Source: a virus. From it: a stretch of DNA of 27,031 bases. The stretch covers positions 1 to 27,031 of IMG/VR virus record IMGVR_UViG_3300043331_001805. One strand, given 5' to 3'. The first letter of the stretch is position 1; each line of letters begins with the position of its first letter. The position numbers were made by a program, and so were the translations under genes. The notes below the pieces were generated by a model. It was not told the origin of the DNA and ran no database searches. It saw nothing but the letters and a program-made list of their open reading frames with translations. Of this stretch, positions 4,269 through 27,031 are shown piece by piece.

Positions 4269-4492
4269 GGCTTTACGTCAAGGGCAGCTACTCCAACCCA
4301 CCGGCCGGCATGTACTTCGCTGCGGCCGGCTGGGTGGAGGTAGACGAGAAGGTGGCGCAGTTCCTGCTGCGCGACGCACCCGAGAATTTCTCCACCGAGG
4401 GTCCAGTGCCGGAGGCCAAGGCTCCGGATGAGCCTGCCAAGGACAAGCAGGTCAAGTCTCCGCCACGCAAGAAGGCAGCCAAGAGCGAGTAG
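4265..4492 (+). CDS. Small head-region protein with a Lys/Pro-rich tail
   Basis: A 75-residue protein whose ATG overlaps the preceding stop (ATGA 4265-4268). Residues 1-43 form a compact segment with conserved-looking aromatic and glycine turns (GMYFAAAGWVEVDEKVAQFLL). Similar short proteins, with a 'value must equal position' beta hairpin followed by a helix, occur just before head-tail adaptors in many siphoviruses. Residues 45-75 are disordered and alternate Pro, Glu and Lys. The function is unknown; membership in the head-completion cluster is inferred from tight coupling on both sides. Confidence 0.7.
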   Translation: MRLYVKGSYSNPPAGMYFAAAGWVEVDEKVAQFLLRDAPENFSTEGPVPEAKAPDEPAKDKQVKSPPRKKAAKSE

Positions 4493-4495
4493 GCC

Positions 4496-5524: not shown

Positions 5525-5525
5525 C

Positions 5526-6020
5526 ATGTACGAGGTGACCATCGCCGGCTTGAGCCAGCAAACGGCGCTGCTGCAGCAGTATCCGGAGATTGCCACCCAG
5601 GAGCTGCAGCAGGCCATGCAGCTGGGGACGCTGGCCATTGTACGCGAGGTGCGGCCGCTGGCTCCAGTCTACCGAGGTGCGCTGCGTCAGAGTCTGGTGA
5701 GCACGGTGGTCAACGAGGGCAACCTGAGCATCGTGGGACGTGTGGGCAGCAATCTGAGTGGTGAGGTGTATCCGGCCGTGATGGAGTTTGGTCGCGCACC
5801 CGGTCGCATGCCGCCTGTGGAGGCGCTGCGCGAGTGGGCTGGGCGGGTGCTGGGCGACGAGGGACTGGCGTATGTCGTGGCGCGCGCCATCGGAGCGCGC
5901 GGCATCCGTGGGCGCGCATTCCTGCGCACTGGCTTCAGCAATGCGGCGCAGCAAGTGATTGGCTACTTCAATCAGGCGCTGGACAACATTGTGCGTCGCA
6001 TCGGAAGAGGTGGTGGGTGA
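5526..6020 (+). CDS. HK97 gp10-like neck/tail-completion protein
   Basis: A 164-residue protein with the HK97-gp10 signature: an N-terminal helix (ALLQQYPEIATQELQQAMQL), a VREVRPLAPVYRGALRQSL strand-turn matching the family 'aP.dTG.LR.Si' motif, then VYPAVMEFGRAPGRMPPVEAL, which fits the 'yA.yvEfGt' motif followed by a proline-rich loop, and a final RAFLRTGF plus helix. The ATG at 5526 begins one base after the previous stop; an upstream ATG at 5508 would overlap the previous gene and is less likely. It lies between the connector and the tail-terminator-like gene, as in other siphoviruses. These proteins join head and tail. Confidence 0.82.
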   Translation: MYEVTIAGLSQQTALLQQYPEIATQELQQAMQLGTLAIVREVRPLAPVYRGALRQSLVSTVVNEGNLSIVGRVGSNLSGEVYPAVMEFGRAPGRMPPVEALREWAGRVLGDEGLAYVVARAIGARGIRGRAFLRTGFSNAAQQVIGYFNQALDNIVRRIGRGGG

Positions 6021-6490
6021 GCATCGAGAGCTGGATCGATCACCTGGTGGCGCGCTGGGGCACCATCGAGCAGGTGGGCGCGCGCGGTGCGCTGCTGCAT
6101 GCCTATCGGGTGTTTGAGGTGGCGGAGTTCCCGGAGGCGCTGGGCGTGTTCCCCTGCGCCATCACCTATCCGGTGCATCTGCGGCCAGTGTACTCCGCCG
6201 GTGGACCCTGCATTGATCTGTGGCGCGGGGTGACGGAGTTCCACCTGTTCCCCAGTGCCAGCAAGTCCAATCTGCCAGCCTTGACGTTGTACTTTGCGCG
6301 CATCCGCGCGGCTGCAGCCGGCTCCATCACACTGGGTGGTCGTGTGGCGCACTTCTTGATCCGCACCGATGTGGATGGACTGCTGGGACCGGTGGAGCTC
6401 AAGTATGGCACGGAAGAGCCGCACTGGGGCATCCTTTGCAACTGGGAGGTCAAGGAGAACGTCAGCGGCTCCTTCGCAGTGGCCGCATAG
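6017..6490 (+). CDS. Tail-terminator-like protein
   Basis: A 157-residue protein beginning with GTG at 6017, inside a GTGA overlap with the previous stop and preceded by GGAAGAGG. The N-terminal helix (IESWIDHLVARWGTIEQVGARG) followed by a mixed beta sheet, and its place between the gp10-like gene and the tail tube gene, fit the gpU/tail-terminator slot that caps the tail tube. No specific catalytic motif is present, and none is expected. The frame runs open further upstream, but that part overlaps the preceding gene. The role rests on order and length rather than on a recognised motif. Confidence 0.65.
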   Translation: MSIESWIDHLVARWGTIEQVGARGALLHAYRVFEVAEFPEALGVFPCAITYPVHLRPVYSAGGPCIDLWRGVTEFHLFPSASKSNLPALTLYFARIRAAAAGSITLGGRVAHFLIRTDVDGLLGPVELKYGTEEPHWGILCNWEVKENVSGSFAVAA

Positions 6491-6502
6491 CAGGAGGTCA
6501 GT

Positions 6503-6721
6503 ATGGCAACGGCAAGGTTGTACGTGGTTCTCAAGGAATTCAGCGAGGTGCGGGATGGCGCGGATGCGCGCGTGTACCTGCCGGGTGAGGTCGTCCTGGA
6601 CCCGCGCTGGTATGCGCCCAACGATCGGCGCGGTGAGGCACGTATGGCACGCGGGCAGGTTGAGCTGCAGGACGTGGAAGTGCTGGATGCGCCGGGGGAT
6701 GGCGAGGTGAGCAATGGGTGA
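6503..6721 (+). CDS. Small hypothetical protein before the tail tube gene
   Basis: A 72-residue protein with a strong ribosome site (CAGGAGG, 6490-6496) and an 8-base overlap with the next gene. It is mostly beta with a hydrophobic core (ARLYVVLKEF, RVYLPGEVVL) and an acidic end. The YLPGEVVLDPRW segment resembles the 'PGe.h.l....a..h...G.v' pattern of small phage proteins near tail tubes and recalls the small protein at 4265-4492. The function is unknown. Translation is probably coupled to the tail tube gene. Confidence 0.65.
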   Translation: MATARLYVVLKEFSEVRDGADARVYLPGEVVLDPRWYAPNDRRGEARMARGQVELQDVEVLDAPGDGEVSNG

Positions 6722-7721
6722 GAGATCGCTATCGCTGTTCCAGTGGGGCATTGAGTCCACGCGCGGCACGGCTGTGGCCGCCACGCGCAAGGTGGGTTTT
6801 GACCCCAAGGGCATCCCTATGGATCGCGTCTGGGAAGGGGTGCGGCTGGCGACCGCCCAGCGTGTGCCGCGCATGAAGAAGCGCAACGACACCTACCTGG
6901 TGCAGGATACGCTGGTCGCCAGCCATGGCTACTACCAACTGCTGCCCGGCATCCTGCAGTGCATGCTGGACGGCACGATCACTCCGGCTGAGCAGACCCC
7001 CAGCCAGGCGGATTACAAGTGGGATGTCACCCCCAGCATCACTGCCGCCAACGACCCAGACTCGCTCACGCTGGAGATGGGCGACAACGTGCAAATGTTC
7101 GAGGTGGAGTACTGCCAGTTCAACCGGCTGGTGCTGGCCGGCTCTCTCAACCAGCAGGGCGCGTCCTCGCCTGTGCGGCTGGAGGCTGGCTACTACGGTC
7201 GGCAAATGACGCCCACCACCGTGACCGCTTCCCAGGCACTGCACACTGGCGTGGAGTTCATGAACGCCAAGCTCAGCCGGCTGTACCAGGACACCACGTG
7301 GGGCGGTGTGGGCGGCACCGAGGTCACCAGCACGCTGCGGGACTTCAACCTCGAACTGCTGGCCGGCAACCACCCCAAGTTCCTGGCCTCCGCCAACAAA
7401 TACTTCGACACGCACGGTGAGGGAGACGTTGGCGCTATGCTCACGCTGACGCTGGAGGGCAACTCCAGCGCGGATAGCATCTACGACCTGTATCAGGCTG
7501 GCACCGAGCGCGCACTGCGGATCACCCTCAACGGCTCGCAGATTGGCTCGGGGGTGAACTACAAGTTCCAGCTGGACGTGTATGGCTATTGGGCGGAGGT
7601 CGTGCCGTTGGACAGCGAGAGCAACGGCAACAACCTGCACAAAGCGCTGTTTGTCAGCCAGCCGGACAGCTCCGGCAACTACCTGGACATCGACGTCATC
7701 ACCAACCATAACGCCATCTAG
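6714..7721 (+). CDS. Major tail (tube) protein
   Basis: A 335-residue protein in the tail tube slot, directly before the frameshifted chaperone pair. It starts with FQWGIESTRGTAVAATRKVGF, a stretch typical of phage tail tube proteins of the 'G.EttwGt.vapt..lp...' type. It continues as long beta strands with loops rich in Asn, Gly and Ser, and includes the tube-like TLTLEGNSSADSIYDLYQAGTERALRI portion followed by a C-terminal strand cluster. It would polymerise into the tube that encloses the tape measure. The ATG at 6714 overlaps the previous gene by eight bases and is preceded by a GAGGTGA site. Confidence is high from order and moderate from sequence. Confidence 0.82.
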   Translation: MGERSLSLFQWGIESTRGTAVAATRKVGFDPKGIPMDRVWEGVRLATAQRVPRMKKRNDTYLVQDTLVASHGYYQLLPGILQCMLDGTITPAEQTPSQADYKWDVTPSITAANDPDSLTLEMGDNVQMFEVEYCQFNRLVLAGSLNQQGASSPVRLEAGYYGRQMTPTTVTASQALHTGVEFMNAKLSRLYQDTTWGGVGGTEVTSTLRDFNLELLAGNHPKFLASANKYFDTHGEGDVGAMLTLTLEGNSSADSIYDLYQAGTERALRITLNGSQIGSGVNYKFQLDVYGYWAEVVPLDSESNGNNLHKALFVSQPDSSGNYLDIDVITNHNAI

Positions 7722-16860: not shown

Positions 16861-17454
16861 ATGGAGCAACAGCTGCCTGTTGGCTGGACCATCCTGATTG
16901 CGCTGCTCTCGGCCGGTGGGGGTGCGGTGCTGCGGGACATTATCGGCTGGCTGCTGGGCGGTCAGGACCGTACCGCCAAACAGGATGCCGCCAACGACGA
17001 GCTGAGCGCCAGACTGCGACGCGAACTGGAGGACTACAGCGATAAGCTCAAGGCTCGACTGGACGCAACCAATGCGGAGGCGGAGGCGCTGCGCGCGCGC
17101 GTAAATAGCATGGAGGCCACCAATGCTACGCGCGAGGAGAGCGCACGTGTCCGCATGCGCGACAGCGAGGTCAAGATCGCGCTGTTGGAGGGACGCGTGC
17201 TGGAGCTGAGCAACAACAACAGTGAGCTGCGAGCCGAGAACAGAGAGCTGCTGCGACGTGATGCCACCAAGGCTGTGCAACTGCAGCAGCAGCAGGTCAA
17301 GCTTGAGGCGCAGGAGCAGGCGCTGGCGGTGCTGGAGGAGAAGTACCGTGCCATGAGCGAGCACAGCGCGCGGTTGGAGGCCACACTGCGAGAGCACAAC
17401 ATTGAGGTGCCTGGCGATCGTCGCAAGACAGGACCGCTGAGCACACCTGAGTAG
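16861..17454 (+). CDS. Membrane-anchored coiled-coil protein (spanin-like or holin partner)
   Basis: A 197-residue protein two bases after the holin candidate. Residues 7-33 form one membrane segment (VGWTILIALLSAGGGAVLRD, then IIGWLL). Residues about 40-180 are an almost unbroken heptad coiled coil rich in Glu, Arg, Leu, Ala and Gln, followed by a short disordered end. A type II membrane anchor plus a long periplasmic helix is the plan of Rz-like inner-membrane spanins, but no outer-membrane lipoprotein gene is visible, so a Gram-positive-type accessory holin or another structural role is equally open. It is the last gene before the terminator. Confidence 0.65.
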   Translation: MEQQLPVGWTILIALLSAGGGAVLRDIIGWLLGGQDRTAKQDAANDELSARLRRELEDYSDKLKARLDATNAEAEALRARVNSMEATNATREESARVRMRDSEVKIALLEGRVLELSNNNSELRAENRELLRRDATKAVQLQQQQVKLEAQEQALAVLEEKYRAMSEHSARLEATLREHNIEVPGDRRKTGPLSTPE

Positions 17455-17473
17455 TGTAGTCGCTGCGACTACA
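17455..17473 (+). other. Short hairpin directly after the last late gene
   Basis: TGTAGTCG (17455-17462) and CGACTACA (17466-17473) are perfect reverse complements separated by three bases. The hairpin starts on the base after the stop codon. It may protect the 3' end or help release ribosomes. It lacks a U-tract and is distinct from the terminator 36 bases later. Confidence 0.5.
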
Positions 17474-17509
17474 GCAGCTGGAGTTGGCTGGCGAGCGCTG
17501 CCGGCCGCG

Positions 17510-17539
17510 CGGGGTGGGTCCCTCAGGCCCACCCCGTTT
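17510..17539 (+). terminator. Probable intrinsic terminator of the late operon
   Basis: CGGGGTGGG (17510-17518) pairs perfectly with CCCACCCCG (17528-17536) around a 9-nt loop, and a short TTT follows. The stem is strong and the place after the last lysis/tail gene is right. The U-tract is only three long, so termination may be partial or factor-assisted, which would allow late transcripts to enter the RNA/ribozyme region downstream. Confidence 0.7.
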
Positions 17540-17711
17540 GCGTTCCTATAAAGGAAGATGCAGCGCCAAAAATTGGGCCTGAGCCCATGCGAAGCTCACT
17601 CCAACGTCTTTTTTGGACCCTCCAAGCCTCGTAAAATTCGGAAACAGGCTTCTTTTCTTGGCGAAATTACATCGGAAACTTTTTAGGTTTTCCTATTGCC
17701 TAAAATGCGAA
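17540..17711 (+). promoter_or_regulatory. A+T-rich control region with a reverse-strand terminator-like hairpin and possible -10 elements
   Basis: This stretch is clearly richer in A and T than anything else in the window and has no gene. TGGGC (17574-17578) and GCCCA (17583-17587) form a small hairpin next to an A5 run, which reads as a U5 tract on the minus strand. TCGGAAAC is repeated directly at 17638-17645 and 17672-17679. TAAAAT occurs at 17632-17637 and 17701-17706; the second could be a -10 box for the RNA that follows, but the matching -35 sequence is poor. Operator or promoter roles are inferred. Confidence 0.4.
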
Positions 17712-17998
17712 GAGGGGGCATACTAGTCCTCGGGGGGCGCAGCCGGGAACGCGCAAAGAGCACCGGGGAGACGCCGAAGCCAAAGCACCAGGCCGTAGCC
17801 CTGACGAAATAGGGACCCGAGCCGGACGGGAAAGCCCACCGGCACCTTACCAAAAGCGACGGTAGTAGCAGCAGGACGGCGCGCGGGAGCACACCCAGGA
17901 CAGGGGTGCCAGTAACGCGCCGGGACTACCGCCCAACAAACCTCGGTCCCAACGGCTCAACGCCGGTCTAGATGATGATCGCGGGACCACCGAGTAAG
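17712..17998 (+). ncRNA. Candidate structured non-coding RNA of unknown family
   Basis: No plus-strand gene is visible here, yet the region holds many nested complementary segments. A three-part arm is formed by 17860-17866/17925-17931 (7 bp), 17877-17883/17916-17922 (7 bp) and 17889-17892/17906-17909 extended by CCC/GGG, with a 6-nt loop AGGACA. A second arm pairs 17945-17950 with 17983-17988, extended by CTC/GAG across a 3-nt bulge, and encloses a CGGC/GCCG hairpin at 17953-17965. Other helices are 17821-17825/17839-17843 with an inner GGG/CCC, 17736-17739/17772-17775 enclosing 17743-17746/17763-17766, and 17799-17802/17811-17814. I cannot match it to RNase P, tmRNA, a tRNA or group I/II introns. 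Strand and ends are inferred, with the plus strand favoured by the neighbouring genes. Confidence 0.6.
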
Positions 17999-18020
17999 GG
18001 TAACACGAGAGACAGAGATA

Positions 18021-18090
18021 CGCGAAACGACCCAACACGAGCGACCATGCGTTGGGTCGTCGGCAGGAAATTGGCCTGCCCTGACGAGCG
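18021..18090 (+). ncRNA. Type II hammerhead ribozyme 1 (before the amidoligase gene)
   Basis: All core parts are present in order: CGC (18021-18023, stem II), GAAA (18024-18027), stem III of 10 bp (18027-18036 with 18051-18060, sequence ACGACCCAAC and its complement), cleavage-site C at 18061, stem I of 6 bp (18062-18067 with 18075-18080) with loop AAATTGG, CTGACGA (18081-18087) and GCG (18088-18090). Cleavage is expected between 18061 and 18062. The stem III sequence differs from the other five copies yet remains fully paired. AAAGGAG and the ATG at 18110 follow. Confidence 0.93.
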
Positions 18091-18109
18091 ACAGACAAAG
18101 GAGCCTACC

Positions 18110-19096
18110 ATGCCAGAGCACATCAACCTCCACAGCACCCCTGAGCAGCGCGCTGAGTGGGGTCGCAAGGCTGCCGAGCGCACGGCCGCGCGGCACATCG
18201 ATGTGGACATCGACGAGGTGACGTTCGGTGTCGAGATTGAGTGTTTCGTCAAGCGCGATTGGGCGAGCCGGATGGGGATCGTCGCCGGCAACTACCACCG
18301 TGACAGCCAACTGCCAGCGCCGTTCCCCTATGGCTGGAACGCGCAGCGCGATGCTTCGCTGCGCCCGGACGACGAGGTCACCTACCGCGCGATGGAGGTC
18401 GTGTCGCCGGTGCTAAAGGGTGTGGCTGGGCTCAAGCAGGTGGTGCTGGTGCTCAACACCCTGGAGCGCGCGGGTGCCAAGGTGAGTGCTACCTGCGGGC
18501 TGCACGTGCACGTCGGCATGCCCTCGCTGCTGGGCGCACGCGCCAGCGACTTTGACCTGGTGGCCAGCTGGGTGGCGCGGCTGGTGGCGCTGATCAGCCG
18601 GCACGAGGTTGCGCTGGGTGCCATCGGCGGCACGCCCACGCGCTTCAACAACCACTACTGCCAGTCGGTCAAGGACGTGTGGAAGCACTTCCACGTTTGG
18701 AGCAAGGGCAACCGCGCGGCGCAGTACCAGGAGCGCGGCAGCCGCTACCGCGTGCTCAACGTGGCGCACCTGTTCGACAGCCAGCGCACCGTGGAGTTCC
18801 GCGTCTTCGCCGGCACGCTCAACGCCACTAAGGTCGTGGGTTACATCACCACGGCGCTGGGGCTGTGCCACAAGGCTGCCGACAAGGCACGCGCGGTGAA
18901 GTTTGACGACAGCACCTACACCGTCGAGCAGCTGCGGCTGATGGACCTGCAGGCGCAGGTGGCCAAGCTGCACAAGGAGCTGCAGGGCTATGGTTGGCCG
19001 ACGCACGAGGCCACCGAGATCCCCACCCTCGGGCTGGTGAAGCACAACCAGCTGTGGAACGCTGGTCTGACCAGCCGCAAGCTGCGCGGCCAGTAA
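18110..19096 (+). CDS. Amidoligase family enzyme (Amidoligase_2 type)
   Basis: A 328-residue enzyme of the glutamine-synthetase/gamma-glutamylcysteine-ligase-like amidoligase superfamily, which uses ATP to join a carboxylate to an amine. Its signatures are FGVEIE (39-44), DASLRPDD (81-88; the 'D.S....' substrate/ATP loop), MEVVSP (95-100; 'E..tP.l.g'), CGLHVHVG (129-136; the hallmark histidine/metal strand), YRVLN (213-217) and VEFRVFAGT (228-236; ATP-binding Arg). All expected acidic, histidine and arginine residues are present, so it is probably active. The ATG at 18110 has AAAGGAG at 18097-18103, just downstream of ribozyme 1; the frame is open further upstream only through the ribozyme. 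Glutamine-amidotransferase-like and GGCT-like genes farther along suggest a shared gamma-glutamyl/amide pathway. The substrates are unknown. Confidence 0.9.
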   Translation: MPEHINLHSTPEQRAEWGRKAAERTAARHIDVDIDEVTFGVEIECFVKRDWASRMGIVAGNYHRDSQLPAPFPYGWNAQRDASLRPDDEVTYRAMEVVSPVLKGVAGLKQVVLVLNTLERAGAKVSATCGLHVHVGMPSLLGARASDFDLVASWVARLVALISRHEVALGAIGGTPTRFNNHYCQSVKDVWKHFHVWSKGNRAAQYQERGSRYRVLNVAHLFDSQRTVEFRVFAGTLNATKVVGYITTALGLCHKAADKARAVKFDDSTYTVEQLRLMDLQAQVAKLHKELQGYGWPTHEATEIPTLGLVKHNQLWNAGLTSRKLRGQ

Positions 19097-19101
19097 GCGA
19101 A

Positions 19102-19163
19102 CGCGAAACACCCCGTCAGGAGGTACGGGGTGTCGGCAGCAAATCGGGCTGTCCTGACGAGCG
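19102..19163 (+). ncRNA. Type II hammerhead ribozyme 2
   Basis: CGC 19102-19104, GAAA 19105-19108, stem III 19108-19115 with 19126-19133 (ACACCCCG), cleavage C 19134, stem I 19135-19140 with 19148-19153 (one G-U pair) around loop AAATCGG, CTGACGA 19154-19160 and GCG 19161-19163. It begins five bases after the amidoligase stop. The stem III loop, TCAGGAGGTA, contains AGGAGG. AAAGGAG and the next ATG (19183) follow. It is nearly identical to ribozyme 6, with a change in the CTGANGA variable base and in the G-U pair. Confidence 0.93.
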
Positions 19164-19182
19164 ACAGGCAAAGGAGCCTACA

Positions 19183-19818
19183 ATGACCCGCAACAGCATC
19201 ACCCTAACCACCGTCGAGCAGTTCTACGTTTGGGCGCAGGCGCAGCTGAGCAGCACCTACAACGCGAGCCACAAGTATGGGCTGCGCGAGTGGATGCACC
19301 ACGAGGACGTGGTTGACCCCAACGGCAACCGCATCTGGACCGGCGAGGTCTATGAGCACTACAAGGACGCGGACGGCAACCCCGAGAAGATCTACCTCAC
19401 CGCGTTGGTGCCGCACTACTACCTGACCAGCAAGGACGGCCGCGACTACGCGCGCGACGTGGTTGAGCTGCCGCGCGAGATCGGTGAGGCGCTGGCCAGG
19501 GTCTGGAAGCAGAACCAGTATCAAAACTTTGTTGGGCTGCGCGATGTGGCTGGGATCCTGAAGGTGCTGGATGCTCAGCTGGCGCGCGAGACGGTGGCGC
19601 GCGGACAGCAGCGCGCCAACCTGGAGAAGCGCATCGTGGACGTCAATCGCCGCAACAGCGCGCGGGCGGAGATCGCGCGGCAGGCCACAGCGCTGCGCGA
19701 CTATATCGCGCGCTCCTGCCTCAATGACCTCAACGCCAGCACCGAGGAGATCGGCAAGCTGACCCTGGCGGAGTTGATCGGGGTGGCGGAGGCGCTGGAG
19801 ACTGCCCCCACCATGTAG
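19183..19818 (+). CDS. Hypothetical protein in the ribozyme-delimited operon
   Basis: A 211-residue protein with AAAGGAG at 19170-19176 and the ATG at 19183. It has an N-terminal half with many aromatic residues (VEQFYVWAQAQLSSTYNASHKYGLREWM, split by an Asp/Asn-rich turn; IYLTALVPHYYLTSKDGRDYARDVVELP) and a C-terminal half that is helical and basic (residues 125-175), possibly a coiled coil. No known domain is recognised. It stands alone between ribozymes 2 and 3, so after cleavage it would be a single-gene mRNA. Confidence 0.75.
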   Translation: MTRNSITLTTVEQFYVWAQAQLSSTYNASHKYGLREWMHHEDVVDPNGNRIWTGEVYEHYKDADGNPEKIYLTALVPHYYLTSKDGRDYARDVVELPREIGEALARVWKQNQYQNFVGLRDVAGILKVLDAQLARETVARGQQRANLEKRIVDVNRRNSARAEIARQATALRDYIARSCLNDLNASTEEIGKLTLAELIGVAEALETAPTM

Positions 19819-19820
19819 CA

Positions 19821-19882
19821 CGCGAAACACCCCGCCCCACCAGGCGGGGTGTCGGCAGGAAATTGGCCTGCCCTGACGAGCG
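19821..19882 (+). ncRNA. Type II hammerhead ribozyme 3
   Basis: CGC 19821-19823, GAAA 19824-19827, stem III 19827-19836 with 19843-19852 (ACACCCCGCC, 10 bp, 6-nt loop), cleavage C 19853, stem I 19854-19859 with 19867-19872 around AAATTGG, CTGACGA 19873-19879 and GCG 19880-19882. It starts two bases after the upstream stop. The stem I arm is identical to that of ribozyme 1. AAAGGAG and ATG 19899 follow. Confidence 0.93.
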
Positions 19883-19898
19883 AACAAAGGAGCGAGCA

Positions 19899-20198
19899 AT
19901 GAGCACCCCCATCAGCATCAAGTTCACCACCCCCACCGGCCGGCACGTTATGGCTTGCAAGACCTGCGGCCACCCCGTTGGTGTCAGGGTCAGCAAGCCG
20001 CTGCGGGACAGCAAAGGCCAGTATCGCAAGGTTGACAGCGTCACCTGCCGCAAGTGCACCCACAGCCACCACTACATCGTCCGCCCGCACACCATGACGC
20101 GCGAAGAGATGGCTGCTTTCTCGGCTGCGCGCAAAGCGGCACGCATCTGCCCAGCTTGCAAGAAGTCCTACGCGGACTGCTCCTGCAACGTGGCATAG
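19899..20198 (+). CDS. Small zinc-ribbon protein
   Basis: A 99-residue protein with two Cys clusters. The first is Cys20-x2-Cys23 and Cys50-x2-Cys53, spaced like a zinc ribbon and including a THSHHYI segment with several His. The second is Cys84-x2-Cys87 with Cys94 and Cys96 near the end. The protein is basic and probably binds nucleic acid or protein through zinc. The start is 19899 with AAAGGAG at 19885-19891. It is the first gene of a three-gene block after ribozyme 3. Confidence 0.8.
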   Translation: MSTPISIKFTTPTGRHVMACKTCGHPVGVRVSKPLRDSKGQYRKVDSVTCRKCTHSHHYIVRPHTMTREEMAAFSAARKAARICPACKKSYADCSCNVA

Positions 20199-20208
20199 GA
20201 GGCTGACC

Positions 20209-20496
20209 ATGTCCTGGGAAACGCAACGCATCTTCTGCCAAGGCTGCCTGACCTACCACGCACGCAACGCGGACTGCCCTGCGTCGGCACCGCAAGTGCT
20301 GCCCTCCTTCGAAGGCACAGCCACCGACTACGAGATCGCCACGCGCGGCACCCCGGTGGGTCGTGGGCAACTGGACGATGCCGGCGACGGCACAGTGATC
20401 GTGCGCTGGGGCATGCGGGAATACCGCGTGACCTACAGCATGGGCGTGCCCACGAAGGTCGAGCCGTTCGGCCTGGGCATCGAATGGGTGGACTAA
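20209..20496 (+). CDS. Hypothetical protein with an N-terminal Cys-x2-Cys motif
   Basis: A 95-residue protein with AGGAGG just after the preceding stop (20198-20203) and the ATG at 20209. The start has Cys10-x2-Cys13 and His17, a further Cys23, then a beta-rich segment (GTVIVRWGMREYRVTYSMG) that might be a small barrel. Zinc binding is suggested by CQGCLTYHARNADC, a plausible treble-clef-like knuckle. No family is recognised. Confidence 0.72.
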   Translation: MSWETQRIFCQGCLTYHARNADCPASAPQVLPSFEGTATDYEIATRGTPVGRGQLDDAGDGTVIVRWGMREYRVTYSMGVPTKVEPFGLGIEWVD

Positions 20497-20507
20497 GGAG
20501 CCAAGCA

Positions 20508-20855
20508 ATGACCCAAATCTGGAACACCATAACTGCCTCACGCGAGGATGCGCTGGCAGCTATTGCGCTGCTGGGCGGGGACCTGAGCACCTGGGGCAGC
20601 AAGTTTCGCATTGACGTGGAGCGCGGCGACGTGGTTGTTACGATCAGCGGCCGTGTCTTCAGCGAAAGCCGCAGTGGTCAGTGGTACTACACCGCCAACC
20701 CTGAGGGCGACCTGCGCGCTGCCTACACCGGCCGGCAGCAGTATCGCTTCGACGATATCGCCTGCAAAGGAAAGGGTGCGCGGCGGAGTGGCATGTTCTT
20801 CAAAGTGATGCGGGAGCTGGAGGCGCTGCTGCTGGCCCAGCCAGCAAAGAACTGA
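20508..20855 (+). CDS. Hypothetical small beta-rich protein
   Basis: A 115-residue protein with AAGGAG at 20495-20500 and the ATG at 20508. The N-terminus has a helix (ASREDALAAIALLGG); the centre has strands FRIDVERGDVVVTISGRVF and QWYYTANPEGDLRAAYTG, and the end is helical. No catalytic motif is recognised. It closes the block between ribozymes 3 and 4. Confidence 0.7.
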   Translation: MTQIWNTITASREDALAAIALLGGDLSTWGSKFRIDVERGDVVVTISGRVFSESRSGQWYYTANPEGDLRAAYTGRQQYRFDDIACKGKGARRSGMFFKVMRELEALLLAQPAKN

Positions 20856-20857
20856 GA

Positions 20858-20919
20858 CGCGAAACACCCCGCGTGCGAGCGCGGGGTGTCCACGGCAAAT
20901 CGGGCCGTGCTGACGAGCG
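20858..20919 (+). ncRNA. Type II hammerhead ribozyme 4
   Basis: CGC 20858-20860, GAAA 20861-20864, stem III 20864-20873 with 20880-20889 (ACACCCCGCG), cleavage C 20890, stem I 20891-20896 with 20904-20909 (CACGGC/GCCGTG) around AAATCGG, CTGACGA 20910-20916 and GCG 20917-20919. Stem I has a sequence different from the other copies while keeping all six pairs, strong evidence that the structure is maintained. It starts two bases after the previous stop. Confidence 0.93.
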
Positions 20920-20942
20920 ACAGACAAAGGAGCCAAGGAGCA

Positions 20943-21383
20943 ATGAACACCATCCGCATCAACCAATGGATCGACGAGCACCGCTACTGCCCAGACTGCG
21001 ACCACGCGGTCCTCCAAACCTACGCGCGCTGGGATGGCAAGCACTACCAGCTGGCTTGCCCCACCTGCGGTGCGTCCACCTTCACCACCACTGAGTACCA
21101 GCTGCTGCTGGCCAGTGCGGAGCGCCGGCTGACCGAACTGGGCTATACGCTGGGTGAGGTAGCGGGTGCTGTCCTGAAGGCACACCGTGACAATGCGGAG
21201 GAGCACGAGGACGTGGATCGCTTTGGTGCGCCCAGCGAGTGCCATGCCCTGGTCAACAACGGTTTCGAGCGCAAGCTGCGTACCATTGTGTGGGGCTATG
21301 GTCTTACCACCACTGAGTACAACGGACTGCTGCGGCAGCGCTGCGACGGCAAGCAGATCTTCCAGCTGGGGCTGTTGGTATAA
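20943..21383 (+). CDS. Zinc-ribbon protein, first gene after ribozyme 4
   Basis: A 146-residue protein. Residues 16-42 are a zinc ribbon (Cys16-x2-Cys19 and Cys39-x2-Cys42, with strands QTYARW and HYQLAC between). The rest is helical, with LLLASAERRLTELGYTLGEV and a C-terminal LTTTEYNGLLRQRCDG. The short motif T-T-T-E-Y-x-x-L-L occurs twice (about residues 48-56 and 123-131), suggesting an internal repeat. The start is 20943 with AAGGAG at 20935-20940; the upstream in-frame ATG at 20886 lies in the ribozyme. The function is unknown. Confidence 0.78.
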   Translation: MNTIRINQWIDEHRYCPDCDHAVLQTYARWDGKHYQLACPTCGASTFTTTEYQLLLASAERRLTELGYTLGEVAGAVLKAHRDNAEEHEDVDRFGAPSECHALVNNGFERKLRTIVWGYGLTTTEYNGLLRQRCDGKQIFQLGLLV

Positions 21384-21393
21384 GGAGGCACCC

Positions 21394-22602
21394 ATGAGCA
21401 CCCAACCCGAGGCACCCCGCACCTATCGCATCTCCCCCAGCAACTACGCGCGCTTGGCGCAGCGCATCGACAAGCTCAACAAGCGCGCCACCAAGCTTGG
21501 GCTGCCGGCTGTGGCCTTGACCGTCGTGGGTCGCGAAGAGGAGCAGCACAAGGACGACCTCACCGGGCTGGTGACCCTGCGCGAGTACATGCGGGTCACG
21601 GCCGAGGGCGAGCCACCCTACCTGGCGGGCTGGACACTGGTGGCGACGCTGCATCACGTGGAGGACCAGTTGCTGGCGCACGTGGTGCCAGGTGAGCAGC
21701 TGCCGCCGGAGTACCTGAGCGCGCCACGCAAGTGCGACCACTGTGGGCTGGACCGACAGCGCAAGGAAACGTTTGTGCTGCGGCACACCGACGGCCACCA
21801 CACGCAGGTGGGTCGCACTTGCATCGCGGACTTCCTGCCAGGCACGTCGCCGGCAGCGCTGGCGGCATGGGCTGAGCTCAGCAACGGTATCCTGGCGGTG
21901 CTGTGCGAGAGTGAAGACAGCTGGGGCATGAACCCCTTGGACCTGCGGTATGCGCTGGATGACTTCCTGACCATGACAGCCGCTGTCATCCGCAAGCACG
22001 GCTGGTTGAGCAAGGGCAAGGCACGCGAGCAGGAACGGCCGTCGGACGCCACGGTGGAGCGCGTGCTGTGGCAGTACAGCAGCGAGATCCGCCGCTATCC
22101 GGCGGAGGTGCTGCACCCCAACGATGCGGACTGCGCGCTGGCGGATGCGGCGCTGGCTTGGGCGCAGGCGCTGCCCGAGGACACCGACAGCGAGTACCTG
22201 CACAACCTGCGGGTGATGGCGGGTGTGGGCGCTATCGAGCCACGCTGGGCTGGTTATGCGGCCTCCATCATCGCAGCTTACCAGCGCGAGCAGCTGCGTG
22301 CGCAGGAGCGCGCGGAGGAGCCGGTGAGCAACTGGGTCGGCGCTGTCGGCAAGCGCCAGGTGTTCACCGGGCTGCTGGTCAAGTCCGTTCGCACCATCGA
22401 CAGCGATGGGCCGTGGCTGCGGCAGCTGTGTCTGCTGACGGATCCGGAGGGCAACGTGCTCAAGTGGTGGACCGGCACGGAGGCGCTGCGGGAGGGCAAG
22501 ACGGTGACGCTCAAGGCCACCGTCAAAGCGCACGAGGAGTATCGCGGCCGCAAGGAGACCGTCATCACCCGCGCAACAGTTGTGGAAACGGAGACAGCAT
22601 GA
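21394..22602 (+). CDS. Phage zinc-finger protein with a possible C-terminal OB-like domain
   Basis: A 402-residue protein with AAGGAGG at 21382-21388 and the ATG at 21394. The N-terminal region (residues 11-100) is mixed. Residues 114-147 carry Cys114-x2-Cys117...VGRTCIADFL with Cys143; this pattern of one CxxC, a beta hairpin and a GxTC-x-DF helix is common in phage proteins of unknown role. The C-terminal 80 residues (FTGLLVKSVR... LCLLTDPEGNVLKWWTG... TVTLKATVKAHEEYRG) alternate strands and look like an OB-type fold, a DNA- or RNA-binding possibility. No known catalytic motif is seen. Its stop overlaps the next gene (ATGA). Confidence 0.75.
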   Translation: MSTQPEAPRTYRISPSNYARLAQRIDKLNKRATKLGLPAVALTVVGREEEQHKDDLTGLVTLREYMRVTAEGEPPYLAGWTLVATLHHVEDQLLAHVVPGEQLPPEYLSAPRKCDHCGLDRQRKETFVLRHTDGHHTQVGRTCIADFLPGTSPAALAAWAELSNGILAVLCESEDSWGMNPLDLRYALDDFLTMTAAVIRKHGWLSKGKAREQERPSDATVERVLWQYSSEIRRYPAEVLHPNDADCALADAALAWAQALPEDTDSEYLHNLRVMAGVGAIEPRWAGYAASIIAAYQREQLRAQERAEEPVSNWVGAVGKRQVFTGLLVKSVRTIDSDGPWLRQLCLLTDPEGNVLKWWTGTEALREGKTVTLKATVKAHEEYRGRKETVITRATVVETETA

Positions 22603-22829
22603 GCAAGCGCAAGGTAGCACCCCAACCACGCAAGCCCAGTGCCTTTGACCCGGACGTGGTCGCGGTGCTGGAGGCATATTGGACTGGGATGTTTGACAGC
22701 CGCGACTTCTCCCTGAGCGCGCTGGAGCACGCGCAGCAGGTGCTGGCGGACAGCAAGTTGCCGGACAGCCAGCAAGCCGCGCAGACGCTGCTGGCCATCG
22801 TGGAGATGCGCCGCAAGCTGGGCAAGTAA
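22599..22829 (+). CDS. Small helical hypothetical protein
   Basis: A 76-residue protein, starting within the preceding stop (ATGA 22599-22602). It has a basic start (MSKRKVAPQPRKP), an FDPDVVAVLEAYWTGMFDS segment and helices. It closes the block before ribozyme 5. It may be a partner of the zinc-finger protein through translational coupling; no domain is recognised. Confidence 0.7.
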   Translation: MSKRKVAPQPRKPSAFDPDVVAVLEAYWTGMFDSRDFSLSALEHAQQVLADSKLPDSQQAAQTLLAIVEMRRKLGK

Positions 22830-22833
22830 CGCA

Positions 22834-22894
22834 CGCGAAACACCTCGGTTGAGCGCCGGGGTGTCGGTGGCAAATCGGGCCACCCTGATGAGCG
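22834..22894 (+). ncRNA. Type II hammerhead ribozyme 5
   Basis: CGC 22834-22836, GAAA 22837-22840, stem III 22840-22848 with 22856-22864 (9 bp including one U-G pair), cleavage C 22865, stem I 22866-22871 with 22879-22884 (GGTGGC/GCCACC) around AAATCGG, CTGATGA 22885-22891 and GCG 22892-22894. It is the most diverged stem III of the ACACC-type copies. It starts four bases after the stop. Confidence 0.93.
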
Positions 22895-22911
22895 AGCAGA
22901 CAGGAGCTGCC

Positions 22912-23205
22912 ATGTACCCTAACGAGCGACCCATACCCAACAGTGCTGCCTACGTCAACTTCCGACACCGGCTGATCGAGCGCTTCAAGCGTCTGCTCGG
23001 TCGAGCGCCAACGATCCAAGAGCGCGGTTGGCTCAAGGACTACGCAGGAGCGCTGGCCGACCGCTACACCGCGATCAACGGCACCAGCAACGTCTGGTGG
23101 GACACCCGCCGCACCAGCGCCTACGAGCGCAACAACGGCACCACGAGCGAGCAGAAGGAGCCTACGCATGAGCCGCAAGCCGGTCGTCCTGACGACCATC
23201 GGTAG
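22912..23205 (+). CDS. Small basic hypothetical protein
   Basis: A 97-residue protein behind a weaker CAGGAG (22900-22905). It is rich in Arg and Asn, with a basic helix FRHRLIERFKRLLGRAPTIQ that could bind nucleic acid and an unstructured tail. Its last 38 bases overlap the start of the amidotransferase gene, which uses its own AAGGAG (23156-23161). Confidence 0.68.
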   Translation: MYPNERPIPNSAAYVNFRHRLIERFKRLLGRAPTIQERGWLKDYAGALADRYTAINGTSNVWWDTRRTSAYERNNGTTSEQKEPTHEPQAGRPDDHR

Positions 23206-23812
23206 CAACCATCTTTCCATCCAGCGCCGACTAGCGCAGCTGGGCGCGCAGGTCAGGGTTGTCGGTGATGCCGAGCAGGCGCTGCGCGCCTACAAGAAGG
23301 CCACGCACGTGCTACTGCCAGGCGGTGCGGACGTACATCCCATGCACTACAACCAGCCGCTGCGGTATGCGCGCTACCTGGACGAGGAGCGCGATGAGCT
23401 GGAGCTGCAGATGGCGGACTGGTGTCTGTTCGACCGCAAGCCGCTGCTGGGCATCTGTCGAGGGCACCAGGTGATCGCGGTGGCGGCTGGAGGTGAGCTG
23501 CACCAGGACATCCAGAAGTGCCTGCGCCGCAGTCACGACTCGGACTTCCACCGGGTGTGTGTCCGCAGCGGCTCCTTGCTGCACACCGCACTGGGTGGTC
23601 GGCCCAAGCACGAGGTACAGTGGGTCAACAGCTACCACCACCAGGCGGTGAGCAAGCTGCCGGCCGGCTGGCAGGTCACCGCCCAGACGCCCAACGGCAT
23701 CATTGAGGGCATCGGCCGCAAGGGCCTGCCGGTGCTGAGCGTGCAGTGGCACCCGGAAGTACTGGTCACCCCCTCAGCTCTCAACCTGTTCAAGAATTTC
23801 CTGGCACTGTAA
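23168..23812 (+). CDS. Class I glutamine amidotransferase-like protein (peptidase C26/gamma-glutamyl hydrolase type)
   Basis: A 214-residue enzyme with the full class I glutamine amidotransferase triad: nucleophile Cys97 in GICRGHQ (95-101), with His195 and Glu197 in SVQWHPE. It also has the LLPGGADVHP segment (49-58) typical of the C26/PuuD branch that cleaves gamma-glutamyl bonds, and NSYHHQAV (154-161). All catalytic residues are present, so it should be active. There is no synthetase domain fused, which suits a hydrolase of gamma-glutamyl conjugates or a free glutaminase partner. The ATG at 23168 is supported by AAGGAG at 23156-23161. It is encoded between an amidoligase and a GGCT-like gene, supporting a role in building or removing gamma-glutamyl/amide tags. 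Confidence 0.9.
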   Translation: MSRKPVVLTTIGSNHLSIQRRLAQLGAQVRVVGDAEQALRAYKKATHVLLPGGADVHPMHYNQPLRYARYLDEERDELELQMADWCLFDRKPLLGICRGHQVIAVAAGGELHQDIQKCLRRSHDSDFHRVCVRSGSLLHTALGGRPKHEVQWVNSYHHQAVSKLPAGWQVTAQTPNGIIEGIGRKGLPVLSVQWHPEVLVTPSALNLFKNFLAL

Positions 23813-23821
23813 GGAGGACGT

Positions 23822-24220
23822 GTGAAGACCAACTGGGATATGCAGCGACTGGAGCGCCTGTACGGGGTGCGTGGCTCCAAGGAGTGGGCGGCAGCAAAGT
23901 GCAAAGCCTACGCGCAGCACACCGGGGTGCCGTGGTGCTGGGCCAGCTACAACGGTCGTGTGCACCTGGCACCCTATCTCGACAAGCTCAAGGAGCGCAT
24001 CTCCGAGCCACCCGTAGGCGCGCAGCGGCTGGAGCAGGTACTCTACCGCCAAGCTGCCCATAGCCCCATGCGGTTGGTCTCACTGCTGCAGCTGCAGTGT
24101 GTGATGGACCTGCCGCTGGCGACCGTAGCACGCGCGGCCACCTGGCTGATCCAGCAGGGCAAGGCTGCGCCCAACGTCAACCGCACTGGGCACGTGACGA
24201 TGCTCAGTCCGCGCTACTAG
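23822..24220 (+). CDS. Hypothetical protein with a winged-helix-like C-terminus
   Basis: A 132-residue protein starting at GTG 23822 behind AAGGAGG (23812-23818). The first half is basic, with the pair WCWASYNGR in the middle and two Cys. The second half (PMRLVSLLQLQCVMDLPLATVARAATWLIQQGKAAPNV, then a strand) looks like a helix-turn-helix followed by a wing, so DNA or RNA binding is possible. No family is recognised. Confidence 0.72.
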   Translation: MKTNWDMQRLERLYGVRGSKEWAAAKCKAYAQHTGVPWCWASYNGRVHLAPYLDKLKERISEPPVGAQRLEQVLYRQAAHSPMRLVSLLQLQCVMDLPLATVARAATWLIQQGKAAPNVNRTGHVTMLSPRY

Positions 24221-24222
24221 CA

Positions 24223-24284
24223 CGCGAAACACCCCGTCAGGAGGTACGGGGTGTCGGCAGCAAATCGGGCTGCCCTGATGAGCG
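24223..24284 (+). ncRNA. Type II hammerhead ribozyme 6
   Basis: CGC 24223-24225, GAAA 24226-24229, stem III 24229-24236 with 24247-24254 (ACACCCCG), cleavage C 24255, stem I 24256-24261 with 24269-24274 (GGCAGC/GCTGCC) around AAATCGG, CTGATGA 24275-24281 and GCG 24282-24284. It starts two bases after the stop and ends only 13 bases before the next ATG (24298). Stem III and its AGGAGG-containing loop equal those of ribozyme 2. Confidence 0.93.
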
Positions 24285-24297
24285 AAAGGACAGAGGG

Positions 24298-24468
24298 ATG
24301 GACCAGTTCCGCAAGACGCAAGGCAAGAACCACAAGTGGATCGGGGTGGGCGGTGCGACCTGCTACTGCTGCCGGCCGGATCGCAAGGGCATGAAGGCTT
24401 CACGGCGCTATGCGCGCCGGCAGCTCAAGGCTCAGCTGCGCAGCGACGTGCGGCAGGAGGTGCTGTGA
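24298..24468 (+). CDS. Very small basic Cys-rich protein
   Basis: A 56-residue protein with a weak ribosome site (AGAGGG) and the ATG at 24298. It has a Cys22, Cys24, Cys25 cluster and a long basic helix (RKGMKASRRYARRQLKAQL), so it probably binds nucleic acid. It is the first gene after ribozyme 6. Its stop shares TGATG with the next gene. Confidence 0.68.
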   Translation: MDQFRKTQGKNHKWIGVGGATCYCCRPDRKGMKASRRYARRQLKAQLRSDVRQEVL

Positions 24469-24734
24469 TGCGCGCGCACGTGCTGGGCAACCGCCTGGAG
24501 ACCGTTTTCACGGTGCGGCTCAAGCATGAGGTGCCCACCCAGCGCGCACCCTATGAGGCTACTGAGCTGGCAGAGCGTGCCGCCAAGGACCTGCTGCCCA
24601 CGCTGCGCACCAACGCAGTGCCGCGCACCCGACCGCAGTTCTGTCAGGTGCTGGAAGACAACTACTCCGCCCGCAGCGACAAGCCGGGACTGGAGTGGCA
24701 TGAAGCCGTCGTCGAGTTCCGCTGGAGGAGCTAG
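24468..24734 (+). CDS. Hypothetical protein, 88 residues
   Basis: This starts in a TGATG overlap (24466-24470) with GGAGG at 24456-24460. It has an amphipathic start (VFTVRLKHEVP), a helix (TELAERAAKDLLPTL) and a closing strand (EWHEAVVEFRWRS). It resembles the small alpha/beta proteins of phage accessory regions, but no family is recognised. It is coupled to its neighbours. Confidence 0.68.
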   Translation: MRAHVLGNRLETVFTVRLKHEVPTQRAPYEATELAERAAKDLLPTLRTNAVPRTRPQFCQVLEDNYSARSDKPGLEWHEAVVEFRWRS

Positions 24735-24736
24735 CA

Positions 24737-25096
24737 ATGACTCGCAACCTGTTTGTGTATGGCACCTTGAAGACTGGAGGCTACTTCTGGCAGCGCGCGC
24801 TGGCACCCCGCATTGGGGTGCCAGACCGCTGTCGCAACCTGCGGCTGTTCGACCTGGGAAGATTCCCGGCTGCCAAGCTGGGGCTGGACAGCAGCGACGT
24901 CGTGACCGGCGAGACGTTCTTGGACGTGTCGGACGAGATTTTCGCGATGCTGGATCGCATCGAGGGTGTGCCGCACCTGTATCAGCACGCGCAGCTCACC
25001 ACGCAGGCTGGCCACGCGGTCGTTGTCTACGTTATGGAGAGCGCGCACCTACATGGGGACTACCTCCCGGAAGGAGTTTGGCATGAACGCCGCTGA
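24737..25096 (+). CDS. Gamma-glutamylcyclotransferase-like (AIG2/GGACT) protein
   Basis: A 119-residue protein with the family hallmark at the N-terminus, LFVYGTLKTGG (5-15), which is the VYGTL/S substrate loop. The catalytic Glu is Glu76 in MLDRIEGV (the 'LDxxEG' motif), followed by YQHAQLT. Length and motif order match the small AIG2/GGACT enzymes that release 5-oxoproline from gamma-glutamyl amines. The GGAGG of its ribosome site ends at 24728. The overlapping next gene suggests co-translation. It completes, with the amidoligase and the amidotransferase-like gene, a set for making, transferring and breaking gamma-glutamyl or amide bonds. Confidence 0.88.
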   Translation: MTRNLFVYGTLKTGGYFWQRALAPRIGVPDRCRNLRLFDLGRFPAAKLGLDSSDVVTGETFLDVSDEIFAMLDRIEGVPHLYQHAQLTTQAGHAVVVYVMESAHLHGDYLPEGVWHERR

Positions 25097-25547
25097 GCAA
25101 CGCAAGTATCGCAAGGCACTGCGCAAGGCACTGCTGGACTACGTGCAGGTGCTGTGCGGTGGGTTGGGCTTTGACGAGACCGGCCGACACCTGCAGCTGG
25201 AGAGCCTGGCCTCCCCCGCCTGGTCCGACCTGGTGGACGACGTGGCGAACGCGGTGGACCCGGCACTGCGCGCACCCTACTGCCGCGTGACGGACGACGA
25301 GCTCATGGGCATCCTGGACGACGCGCACGAGGAGCTGCTGGAGCAGCTGCGCGCCTACGTCGTGCACGAGACCGACCAAGACGCGGACGACGTGGTGCGG
25401 GAGACACTGGAGGGTCTGCTGGACGAGAAGTTTGCGGTGCGGCTGGAGCGGCAGCGCGCGCGGACGCGCAAGCTGCTGCGGCTGCAGTGGAAGAACATCA
25501 AGCGGGTGCTGCGCGACTACAACCGCGCGATGCCCGCAAAGGAGTAG
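25083..25547 (+). CDS. Hypothetical helical protein
   Basis: A 154-residue protein overlapping the preceding gene by 14 bases, with GGAAGGAG at 25069-25076. It is mostly helical and strongly charged: a basic start (RKYRKALRKALL), an acidic middle (DDELMGILDDAHEELLEQL; DQDADDVVRETLEGLLDEK) and a basic coiled-coil end (RQRARTRKLLRLQWKNIKRVLRDY). No known domain is recognised; the dipolar design suggests a nucleic-acid-associated or protein-binding role. Confidence 0.7.
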   Translation: MNAAEQRKYRKALRKALLDYVQVLCGGLGFDETGRHLQLESLASPAWSDLVDDVANAVDPALRAPYCRVTDDELMGILDDAHEELLEQLRAYVVHETDQDADDVVRETLEGLLDEKFAVRLERQRARTRKLLRLQWKNIKRVLRDYNRAMPAKE

Positions 25548-25551
25548 CAAC

Positions 25552-26052
25552 ATGCCACGCGTTCATGAGGTGCAGCGCGCACGCAAAGCCATTCCCGGCA
25601 CAGACGTCGCCAGGGGAGACCACTACTACTGGTGGAAGTTTCGGTTTGGCGGCAAGCACGTGAGCAAGACCTATCCGGATCGCAGCCAGCTGACGCAGGA
25701 CGACTTCCTGATCAGCCTGTATGCGCACGAGGATGGGCTGCAGATCACGACCGACACCCACCGCCACGACTACTATGAGCTGCTGCGCAGCACGGCTGAG
25801 GAGGTGGAGCAGCTGGGGCAGACTGAGGAAGGCAAGGTTGACAACCTGCCGGAGAATTTCCAGGAGTCCTCGCCCAACGCGGAGCGCTGGCGCAGTCGCA
25901 ACGAGAAGTGCCGGGAGATTGCGGAGGCGCTGCGAGTGCTGGCGGACGAGGTGGAGGGGTGGAAGCCAGACAAGGCTGCTGGCGAGCGCTGGGGTGCTTG
26001 GCGCGACTTGGCGCGTGATGCGCTGTTCGGCATCGACTGGAGCGTAGACTAG
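25552..26052 (+). CDS. Hypothetical phage protein with an aromatic N-terminal motif
   Basis: A 166-residue protein, ATG at 25552, with AAGGAG at 25538-25543. Its N-terminal region, GDHYYWWKFRFGGKHVSKT, matches a common phage protein opening ('G..YY.W.fr.ggk..s.t.P..S.lT.S.f'), which I cannot assign a function. The C-terminal half is helical and acidic, with Arg and Glu pairs. It ends three bases before the Spo11-like gene and is probably co-translated with it. Confidence 0.7.
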   Translation: MPRVHEVQRARKAIPGTDVARGDHYYWWKFRFGGKHVSKTYPDRSQLTQDDFLISLYAHEDGLQITTDTHRHDYYELLRSTAEEVEQLGQTEEGKVDNLPENFQESSPNAERWRSRNEKCREIAEALRVLADEVEGWKPDKAAGERWGAWRDLARDALFGIDWSVD

Positions 26053-26054
26053 CC

Positions 26055-26966
26055 ATGCCACGCGAAGCCTTCATCCAGATCAACATGGGTGAGGCGCGGA
26101 TGGCGTTGATCGCCAAGGTCAACGTCATCATCGCGACCTACCAGCAGCAAGGCTATCGGCTGAGCCTGCGGCAGCTGTACTACCAGCTGGTCTCGCGCGC
26201 GGTCATCGAGAACAACCTCAAGTCCTACAAGCGCCTGGTAGCGCTGCTCACGGATGCGCGCATGGCTGGGCTGGTGGACTGGGACGCCATCGAAGACCGC
26301 AACCGCGAGTATCTGCTGCCCAGCCACTGGGAGCGACCGGAGCAGGTCATCGCCAGCGCGGCTGCCTCCTACCGCATCGACAAGTGGAAGGATCAGCCCA
26401 AGTATGTGGAGGTCATGGTCGAGAAGGATGCCCTGAGCGGGGTGCTGTGGCCGGTGTGCGCTGCGCTGGACGTGGGCTTCACCGCCAACCGTGGCTACTC
26501 CTCCGCCAGCGCCATGTACGAGGCTGGCAAGCGCATCCGCCGCGCGCTGCGTGCCGGCAAGGAGTGCCACGTGCTGTACTTGGGGGATCACGATCCCTCC
26601 GGACAGGACATGACGCGCGACATCCGCGAGCGCCTGGGGCTGTTCGGCGGCACCCTGCTGGTCAGCCGACTGGCGCTCAACAAGAGCCAGGTGGACTTCT
26701 ATGGTCCGCCCGAAAATCCCGCCAAGCTCACCGACAGCCGTGCGCGCGCCTACGTCGCCAAGTATGGCAGCAGCAGCTGGGAGCTGGATGCGCTGGAGCC
26801 CAACGTGTTGGCAGAGCTGGTGCGCAAGGCAGTGCTGCGCCGGCGAGACCAGGCACTGTGGGACGCGGCCGTGGCCGTGGAGCGCGTGCAGTGTGCGGAG
26901 CTACAGCAGATCGCCCGCCGCTATGACGCAGCGGTGCTGGCCACGGAAGCTCATGCTGAGGAGTAA
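26055..26966 (+). CDS. Spo11/topoisomerase VI-A-like protein with Toprim domain
   Basis: A 303-residue protein. The N-terminal part has the winged-helix (CAP-like) signature SLRQLYYQLVSR, in which Arg39 and Tyr42-Tyr43 align with the R-x-x-Y-Y of Spo11 and Topo VI-A, where one Tyr attacks DNA. Next is the Toprim part: VEVMVEKDALSGVL (118-131) with Glu123 as the conserved acid, and VLYLGDHDPSGQD (173-185) with Asp178-x-Asp180 as the DxD pair. About 303 residues is short compared with Topo VI-A, matching minimal orphan A-subunits from mobile elements. No B-subunit (GHKL ATPase) is encoded in the window. The protein probably binds and may cut DNA; the final 50 residues are a basic helix. ATG at 26055 follows the previous stop by two bases. 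Confidence 0.82.
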   Translation: MPREAFIQINMGEARMALIAKVNVIIATYQQQGYRLSLRQLYYQLVSRAVIENNLKSYKRLVALLTDARMAGLVDWDAIEDRNREYLLPSHWERPEQVIASAAASYRIDKWKDQPKYVEVMVEKDALSGVLWPVCAALDVGFTANRGYSSASAMYEAGKRIRRALRAGKECHVLYLGDHDPSGQDMTRDIRERLGLFGGTLLVSRLALNKSQVDFYGPPENPAKLTDSRARAYVAKYGSSSWELDALEPNVLAELVRKAVLRRRDQALWDAAVAVERVQCAELQQIARRYDAAVLATEAHAEE

Positions 26967-27027
26967 TTGGTAAAGCTGCCGCGTGCGGCTTGGACTATAA
27001 TTAGGACAGGAAGGAGCGCAGAGCGAG
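26967..27027 (+). promoter_or_regulatory. Possible promoter and leader of the next gene
   Basis: A perfect TATAAT lies at 26996-27001, but no good -35 box is at the usual spacing (TTGGTA at 26967 is 23 bases away). GCCGC and GCGGC (26978-26982, 26985-26989) form a small palindrome just upstream, possibly an operator. AAGGAG at 27011-27016 begins the translation signal of the following gene. Confidence 0.4.
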
Positions 27028-27031
27028 ATGA
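27028..27031 (+). CDS. Start of the next gene (only the ATG is in the window)
   Basis: ATG at 27028-27030 is preceded by AAGGAG at 27011-27016. Only the first codon is visible, so no product can be named. Confidence 0.4.

Follow-up and report, generated by a model that had tools for sequence, protein, structure and literature searches.

We confirmed the predicted presence of six complete type II hammerhead elements on the + strand between positions 18020 and 24285 of a tailed-phage contig. Judged by their sequence, they are well placed and probably active, and we consider it likely that they act in cis to cut a polycistronic accessory-operon transcript into blocks. The window, by which we mean the whole analysed stretch of 27,031 nucleotides (positions 1 to 27,031 of IMG/VR record IMGVR_UViG_3300043331_001805), is part of this contig and encodes capsid-like, tape-measure, and minor tail proteins upstream of the elements. 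A search with the pattern CGCGAAA-N-GTC-N-CTGANGAGCG returned exactly six matches in the window, all on the + strand and at the places given in the original prediction, compared to zero matches across 100 dinucleotide shuffles. The looser core GAAA-N-GTH-N-CTGANGA, searched on both strands of the 27-kb window, retrieved the same six matches only; the shuffles gave a mean of 0.39 and a maximum of 3 such matches and never reached six. Together with a control in which the element scan was run on 1.35 Mb of reversed sequence and gave no element, the shuffles rule out a chance origin of the six elements.

Hammerhead 1 (18020-18091, pattern 18021-18090; predicted cut 18061/18062; 32.8 bits against the Rfam model RF02276) heads the operon, precedes the amidoligase gene, and combines a 3-bp stem II with a long stem III loop. 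It is followed on the same strand by hammerheads 2 (19101-19164, pattern 19102-19163; predicted cut 19134/19135; 27.7 bits), 3 (19820-19883, pattern 19821-19882; predicted cut 19853/19854; 36.3 bits), 4 (20857-20920, pattern 20858-20919; predicted cut 20890/20891; 31.5 bits), 5 (22833-22895, pattern 22834-22894; predicted cut 22865/22866; 29.4 bits), and 6 (24222-24285, pattern 24223-24284; predicted cut 24255/24256; 29.5 bits). Loop I reads AAATTGG in copies 1 and 3 and AAATCGG in copies 2, 4, 5, and 6, which bears out the loop AAATYGG noted earlier. The stem III loops of copies 2 (19115-19124) and 6 (24236-24245) contain AGGAGGT, a perfect Shine-Dalgarno-like heptamer; this may be a coincidence.

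The hammerhead core (GAAA, UH before the cleavage site, CUGANGA) is intact in all six copies, as had been claimed. The minimum-energy fold of each copy is the exact three-stem hammerhead, in which loops close stems I and III and stem II, just 3 bp long, is open, corresponding to the type II permutation. The strand order (GAAA, stem III hairpin, UH, stem I hairpin, CUGANGA, open short stem II) and the core are identical to those of type II in RF02276 (PMC3088659), and the length is similar. At the Rfam gathering cut-off, which is 37 bits for RF02276, no match was found for the six elements, all of which score lower. A permissive search limited to the 7.2-kb region ranked them as the top six matches, all to Hammerhead_II (RF02276), at 27.7-36.3 bits and with E-values of 1e-4 to 0.02 that apply to this 7.2-kb region only. 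The Infernal check proposed with the original prediction was thus negative at the gathering cut-off but positive at the level of E-values (6/6). Because of the scores below 37 bits, we file the elements as type II by core and fold rather than as formal Rfam hits; the proposed assignment to type II with an open stem II agrees with core, fold, covariation, and Rfam similarity alike.

Evidence on pairing came from relatives of the elements. The pattern used to find them specifies the bases of the core, the two inner pairs of stem II, a single pair of stem III, and part of the loop I signature, and leaves the pairing of stem I and the remaining pairing of stem III free. It retrieved eight further elements from other IMG/VR virus contigs, and stems I and III form in all eight. 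As a rough negative control for this pattern, a scan of GTDB with one genome for each of 84,980 species gave six matches, none with convincing stems; the only one to pass a lax stem test has 4-bp stems and a 37-nt loop I, and we read it as chance. In the alignment of the window's six elements with the eight relatives (14 sequences, 9 contigs), 202/202 pair cells are standard, and 44 cells, in ten pairs of stems I and III, carry two-sided changes. No shuffled or slid structure came near the observed pairing. Stem II is CGC/GCG in all 14 aligned sequences; members found later add one CTC/GAG and one G-U form.

These changes bear on the idea that the elements are DNA-level repeats, i.e. near-identical junctions at which recombination swaps accessory blocks, in which case any ribozyme activity would be a by-product or a selfish passenger. 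The copies within the phage are indeed alike (hammerheads 2 and 6 differ at 2/64 positions), the blocks consist of accessory genes, and in other contigs, the genes next to elements are small and, on visual comparison, unlike one another. However, compensatory changes in stems alongside fixed unpaired core bases point to selection on RNA, and strand and placement before the Shine-Dalgarno sequence are consistent, so that we see only a slim chance for an origin as recombination junctions. Likewise, it is highly improbable that the elements are ordinary hairpins between genes, serving as terminators or RNase sites, and only look like hammerheads. The GC-rich stem III right after a stop codon does look like a terminator stem, but such hairpins have no need for the exact conservation of GAAA and CUGANGA seen in every copy and relative, and no terminator-like sites were found on the + strand from 17200 to 27031.

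The elements split the accessory region into blocks of 1, 1, 3, 3, and 3 genes, all on the + strand, plus the genes beyond element 6. Block 1 (18110-19096) is the amidoligase gene (Pfam PF12224, E 2e-22; PHROG 2443, amidoligase), block 2 (19183-19818) one open frame with a Shine-Dalgarno sequence and no Pfam or PHROG match, and block 3 (19899-20855) three small open frames (19899-20198, 20209-20496, 20508-20855) with no Pfam match. Block 4 (20943-22829) comprises a gene with weak zinc-ribbon matches (20943-21383), a member of PHROG 2319, a family of unknown function (21394-22602), and a third gene (22599-22829). Block 5 (22912-24220) consists of the genes 22912-23205, 23168-23812, and 23822-24220, of which the second encodes a peptidase C26/class I glutamine amidotransferase according to Pfam and PHROG. 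A gamma-glutamyl cyclotransferase-like (GGACT) gene (24737-25096) lies in the same operon; the set of amidoligase, peptidase C26/glutamine amidotransferase, and GGACT suggests that a peptide or metabolite undergoes gamma-glutamyl (amide) chemistry. The protein encoded at 26055-26966 matches PHROG 6247, annotated as DNA topoisomerase (E 1e-102), and has a 52% identical relative in the contig L070. Neither for the amidoligase nor for the PHROG 2319 protein was a close relative found in IMG/VR. No hammerheads were detected in the contigs L070 and L071, which are two large relatives of the phage; one weak 18-bit match in L071 fails the stem test. Virus contigs with a 62-63% identical capsid protein lack the elements, which are therefore accessory, not fixed, and dispensable in the wider group.

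Each element was predicted to stand before a gene block, and this holds for all six: a start codon follows 13-23 nt downstream with a Shine-Dalgarno sequence in between. On the other side, stem II begins 2-5 nt past a stop codon in five of the six copies (2-6). Hammerhead 1 is preceded by a purine-rich non-coding leader of about 300 nt (17718-18019) with no gene directly before the element. This leader folds to -109.7 kcal/mol with a z of only -1.1, and the stretch 17440-18110 had no match in Rfam, by blastn, or in the phage collection. If the leader is a separate RNA, hammerhead 1 would set its 3' end.

The close spacing to stop codons raises the question of whether active ribozymes were selected for regulation and not for constitutive trimming. 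GAAA and the 5' strand of stem II would be hidden by a ribosome terminating at the stop codon, which would delay cleavage until the upstream gene has been translated; in an alternative form, cleavage would vary with translation or Mg2+. Sub-class members from other contigs, where a stop codon was found, also have it 2-10 nt before stem II, this stem is short and weak (3 bp), and Perreault et al. 2011 raise regulated cleavage as a possibility (PMC3088659). Yet the tight gene packing of phages alone would yield short stop distances, and copy 1 does not directly follow a gene. We regard selection for regulation as unlikely.

Under the reading that we favour, constitutive processing of the operon transcript, each hammerhead, once transcribed, would cut in cis after the C following stem III (C17), between the stop codon of the upstream gene and the ribosome-binding site of the next. 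As inferred from the hammerhead class, the cut would leave a 2',3'-cyclic phosphate and a 5'-OH. The upstream RNA would end in a GC-rich 3' hairpin carrying the 2',3'-cyclic phosphate, about 35-40 nt beyond the last stop codon, and the downstream RNA would carry a 5'-OH and start with the hairpin of the 6-bp stem I, with the Shine-Dalgarno sequence close by. This would divide the transcript into mRNAs of one gene or a short block, whose structured ends would be relatively protected. The hairpins formed at the two new ends would be expected to slow decay, and each block would therefore become a separately stable mRNA. RNase III sites in T7 early RNA provide a comparable splitting into mRNAs with structured ends. 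Core, fold, covariation, position, and orientation are read from the sequence, and it is cleavage in the cell, end protection, and an effect on expression that we infer.

Processing of mRNA by the six elements is plausible and has already been proposed by Perreault et al. 2011 for phage hammerheads in clusters (PMC3088659). That study describes prophages with multiple hammerheads flanking genes or short blocks and puts forward that long phage RNAs are cut into gene- or operon-length mRNAs (PMC3088659). The window is similar to these prophage clusters in that several hammerheads share a strand and surround genes of diverse kinds: its six elements on the + strand flank blocks, with phage structural genes upstream. 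It differs in that its six elements all belong to a single sub-class and a single operon; the arrangements named as tested in that study are double and triple ones. In vitro cleavage is reported there for clustered hammerheads, as is cleavage in E. coli for those of Agrobacterium; four of 18 consensus-like candidates failed to cut in vitro (PMC3088659). For the haloviruses HF1/HF2, the mapped 5' end of a major transcript is no more than 3 nt from a hammerhead variant's cleavage site (PMC3088659). This HHphage variant likewise lies a few nt (13) upstream of a phage start codon, but it is single-copy, a core variant, and from a virus with an archaeal host.

For the question of how unusual the array is, we surveyed virus contigs by pattern scans and a stem test; the patterns fix parts of the core, and the contigs are not a random sample. 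The survey yielded at least 168 different type II elements, the six of the window among them. At least 25 sources have several elements, on one strand only in each among the matches listed. Among the 168 elements listed, a Shine-Dalgarno and start codon context was found for 104 in sense versus 7 in antisense, and a stop-codon context for 129 versus 26. The virus contig IMGVR_UViG_3300017605_000570 (L200) carries, like the window, a same-strand type II array; its 11 RF02276 matches within 3.9 kb (2817-6749) are all above the gathering cut-off, unlike the window's six, which are all below. The L200 elements are mostly 240-390 nt apart and form the densest array among the contigs examined. At least eight stem-tested elements were present in virus contig L211 and at least seven each in the IMG/VR records L159 and L168. 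The arrays of L159 and L168 show near-equal spacing, and the two are apparently related phages with a conserved array. IMGVR_UViG_3300046490_000023 has six elements in 5.8 kb. Since other virus contigs hold 6-11 elements, the window's six in 6.3 kb fall inside the observed range. The original prediction had called six copies exceptional; this view does not stand against contigs with 11, at least 8, at least 7, and at least 7 elements and against clustering published in 2011 (PMC3088659). The array phenomenon is already known, and six copies are not a record.

What may be less usual than the copy number is the sub-class to which the window's six belong, comprising at least 18 elements from at least 11 contigs. 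Its members, selected in part by loop I sequence, have a 6-bp stem I, a 7-nt loop I ending in YGG (usually AAANYGG), and a 3-bp stem II with an A on the 5' side in all 18 members listed and a purine after. The type II consensus of RF02276, as presented in PMC3088659, includes a pseudoknot between loop I and the tail, with at least four pairs in most cases, whereas the AAATYGG loops of the window have no complement in the tail; we thus rejected such a loop I pseudoknot for the six elements. In the 18 sub-class members listed, the longest Watson-Crick run between loop I and the 3' tail is 1-3, with a mean of 1.9 versus 2.1 in shuffled sequences, compared to 3.2 versus 2.8 shuffled for the other type II elements. 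Only 2 of the 18 listed pass the Rfam cut-off, and 16 are missed.

PMC3088659 links the pseudoknot to fast cleavage in tested type II ribozymes. Because the window's elements lack it, their activity may be slow at physiological Mg2+. From the sequences, it would be a natural inference that a tertiary contact other than the pseudoknot connects loop I to the capped short stem II. A more far-reaching version for the AAANYGG sub-class, in which an A-A or A-G mismatch caps the 3-bp stem II, would be that an undescribed contact replaces the pseudoknot and that siting past the stop codon lets the terminating ribosome time cleavage; we offer this combination as speculation that is probably wrong. Many hammerheads without the pseudoknot are already mentioned in 2011 (PMC3088659); for this reason, and given the selection by loop sequence, we claim no new type.

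The value of the array lies mainly in the under-counted sub-class and in its use as a test system and is otherwise moderate. As the sub-class without the pseudoknot shows, surveys that apply the Rfam cut-off overlook part of the hammerheads in phages. Being compact, this type II ribozyme also lends itself to structural work; as of 2017, no type II hammerhead had an available crystallographic model (PMC6155905). Bacterial hammerheads are enriched near one another and near Mu-like phage genes for reasons unknown (PMC10085705), and what role hammerheads play in phages has yet to be settled (PMC6155905, PMC10085705). A phage operon whose junctions carry six near-standard copies provides a clean test case of whether hammerheads define mRNA ends.
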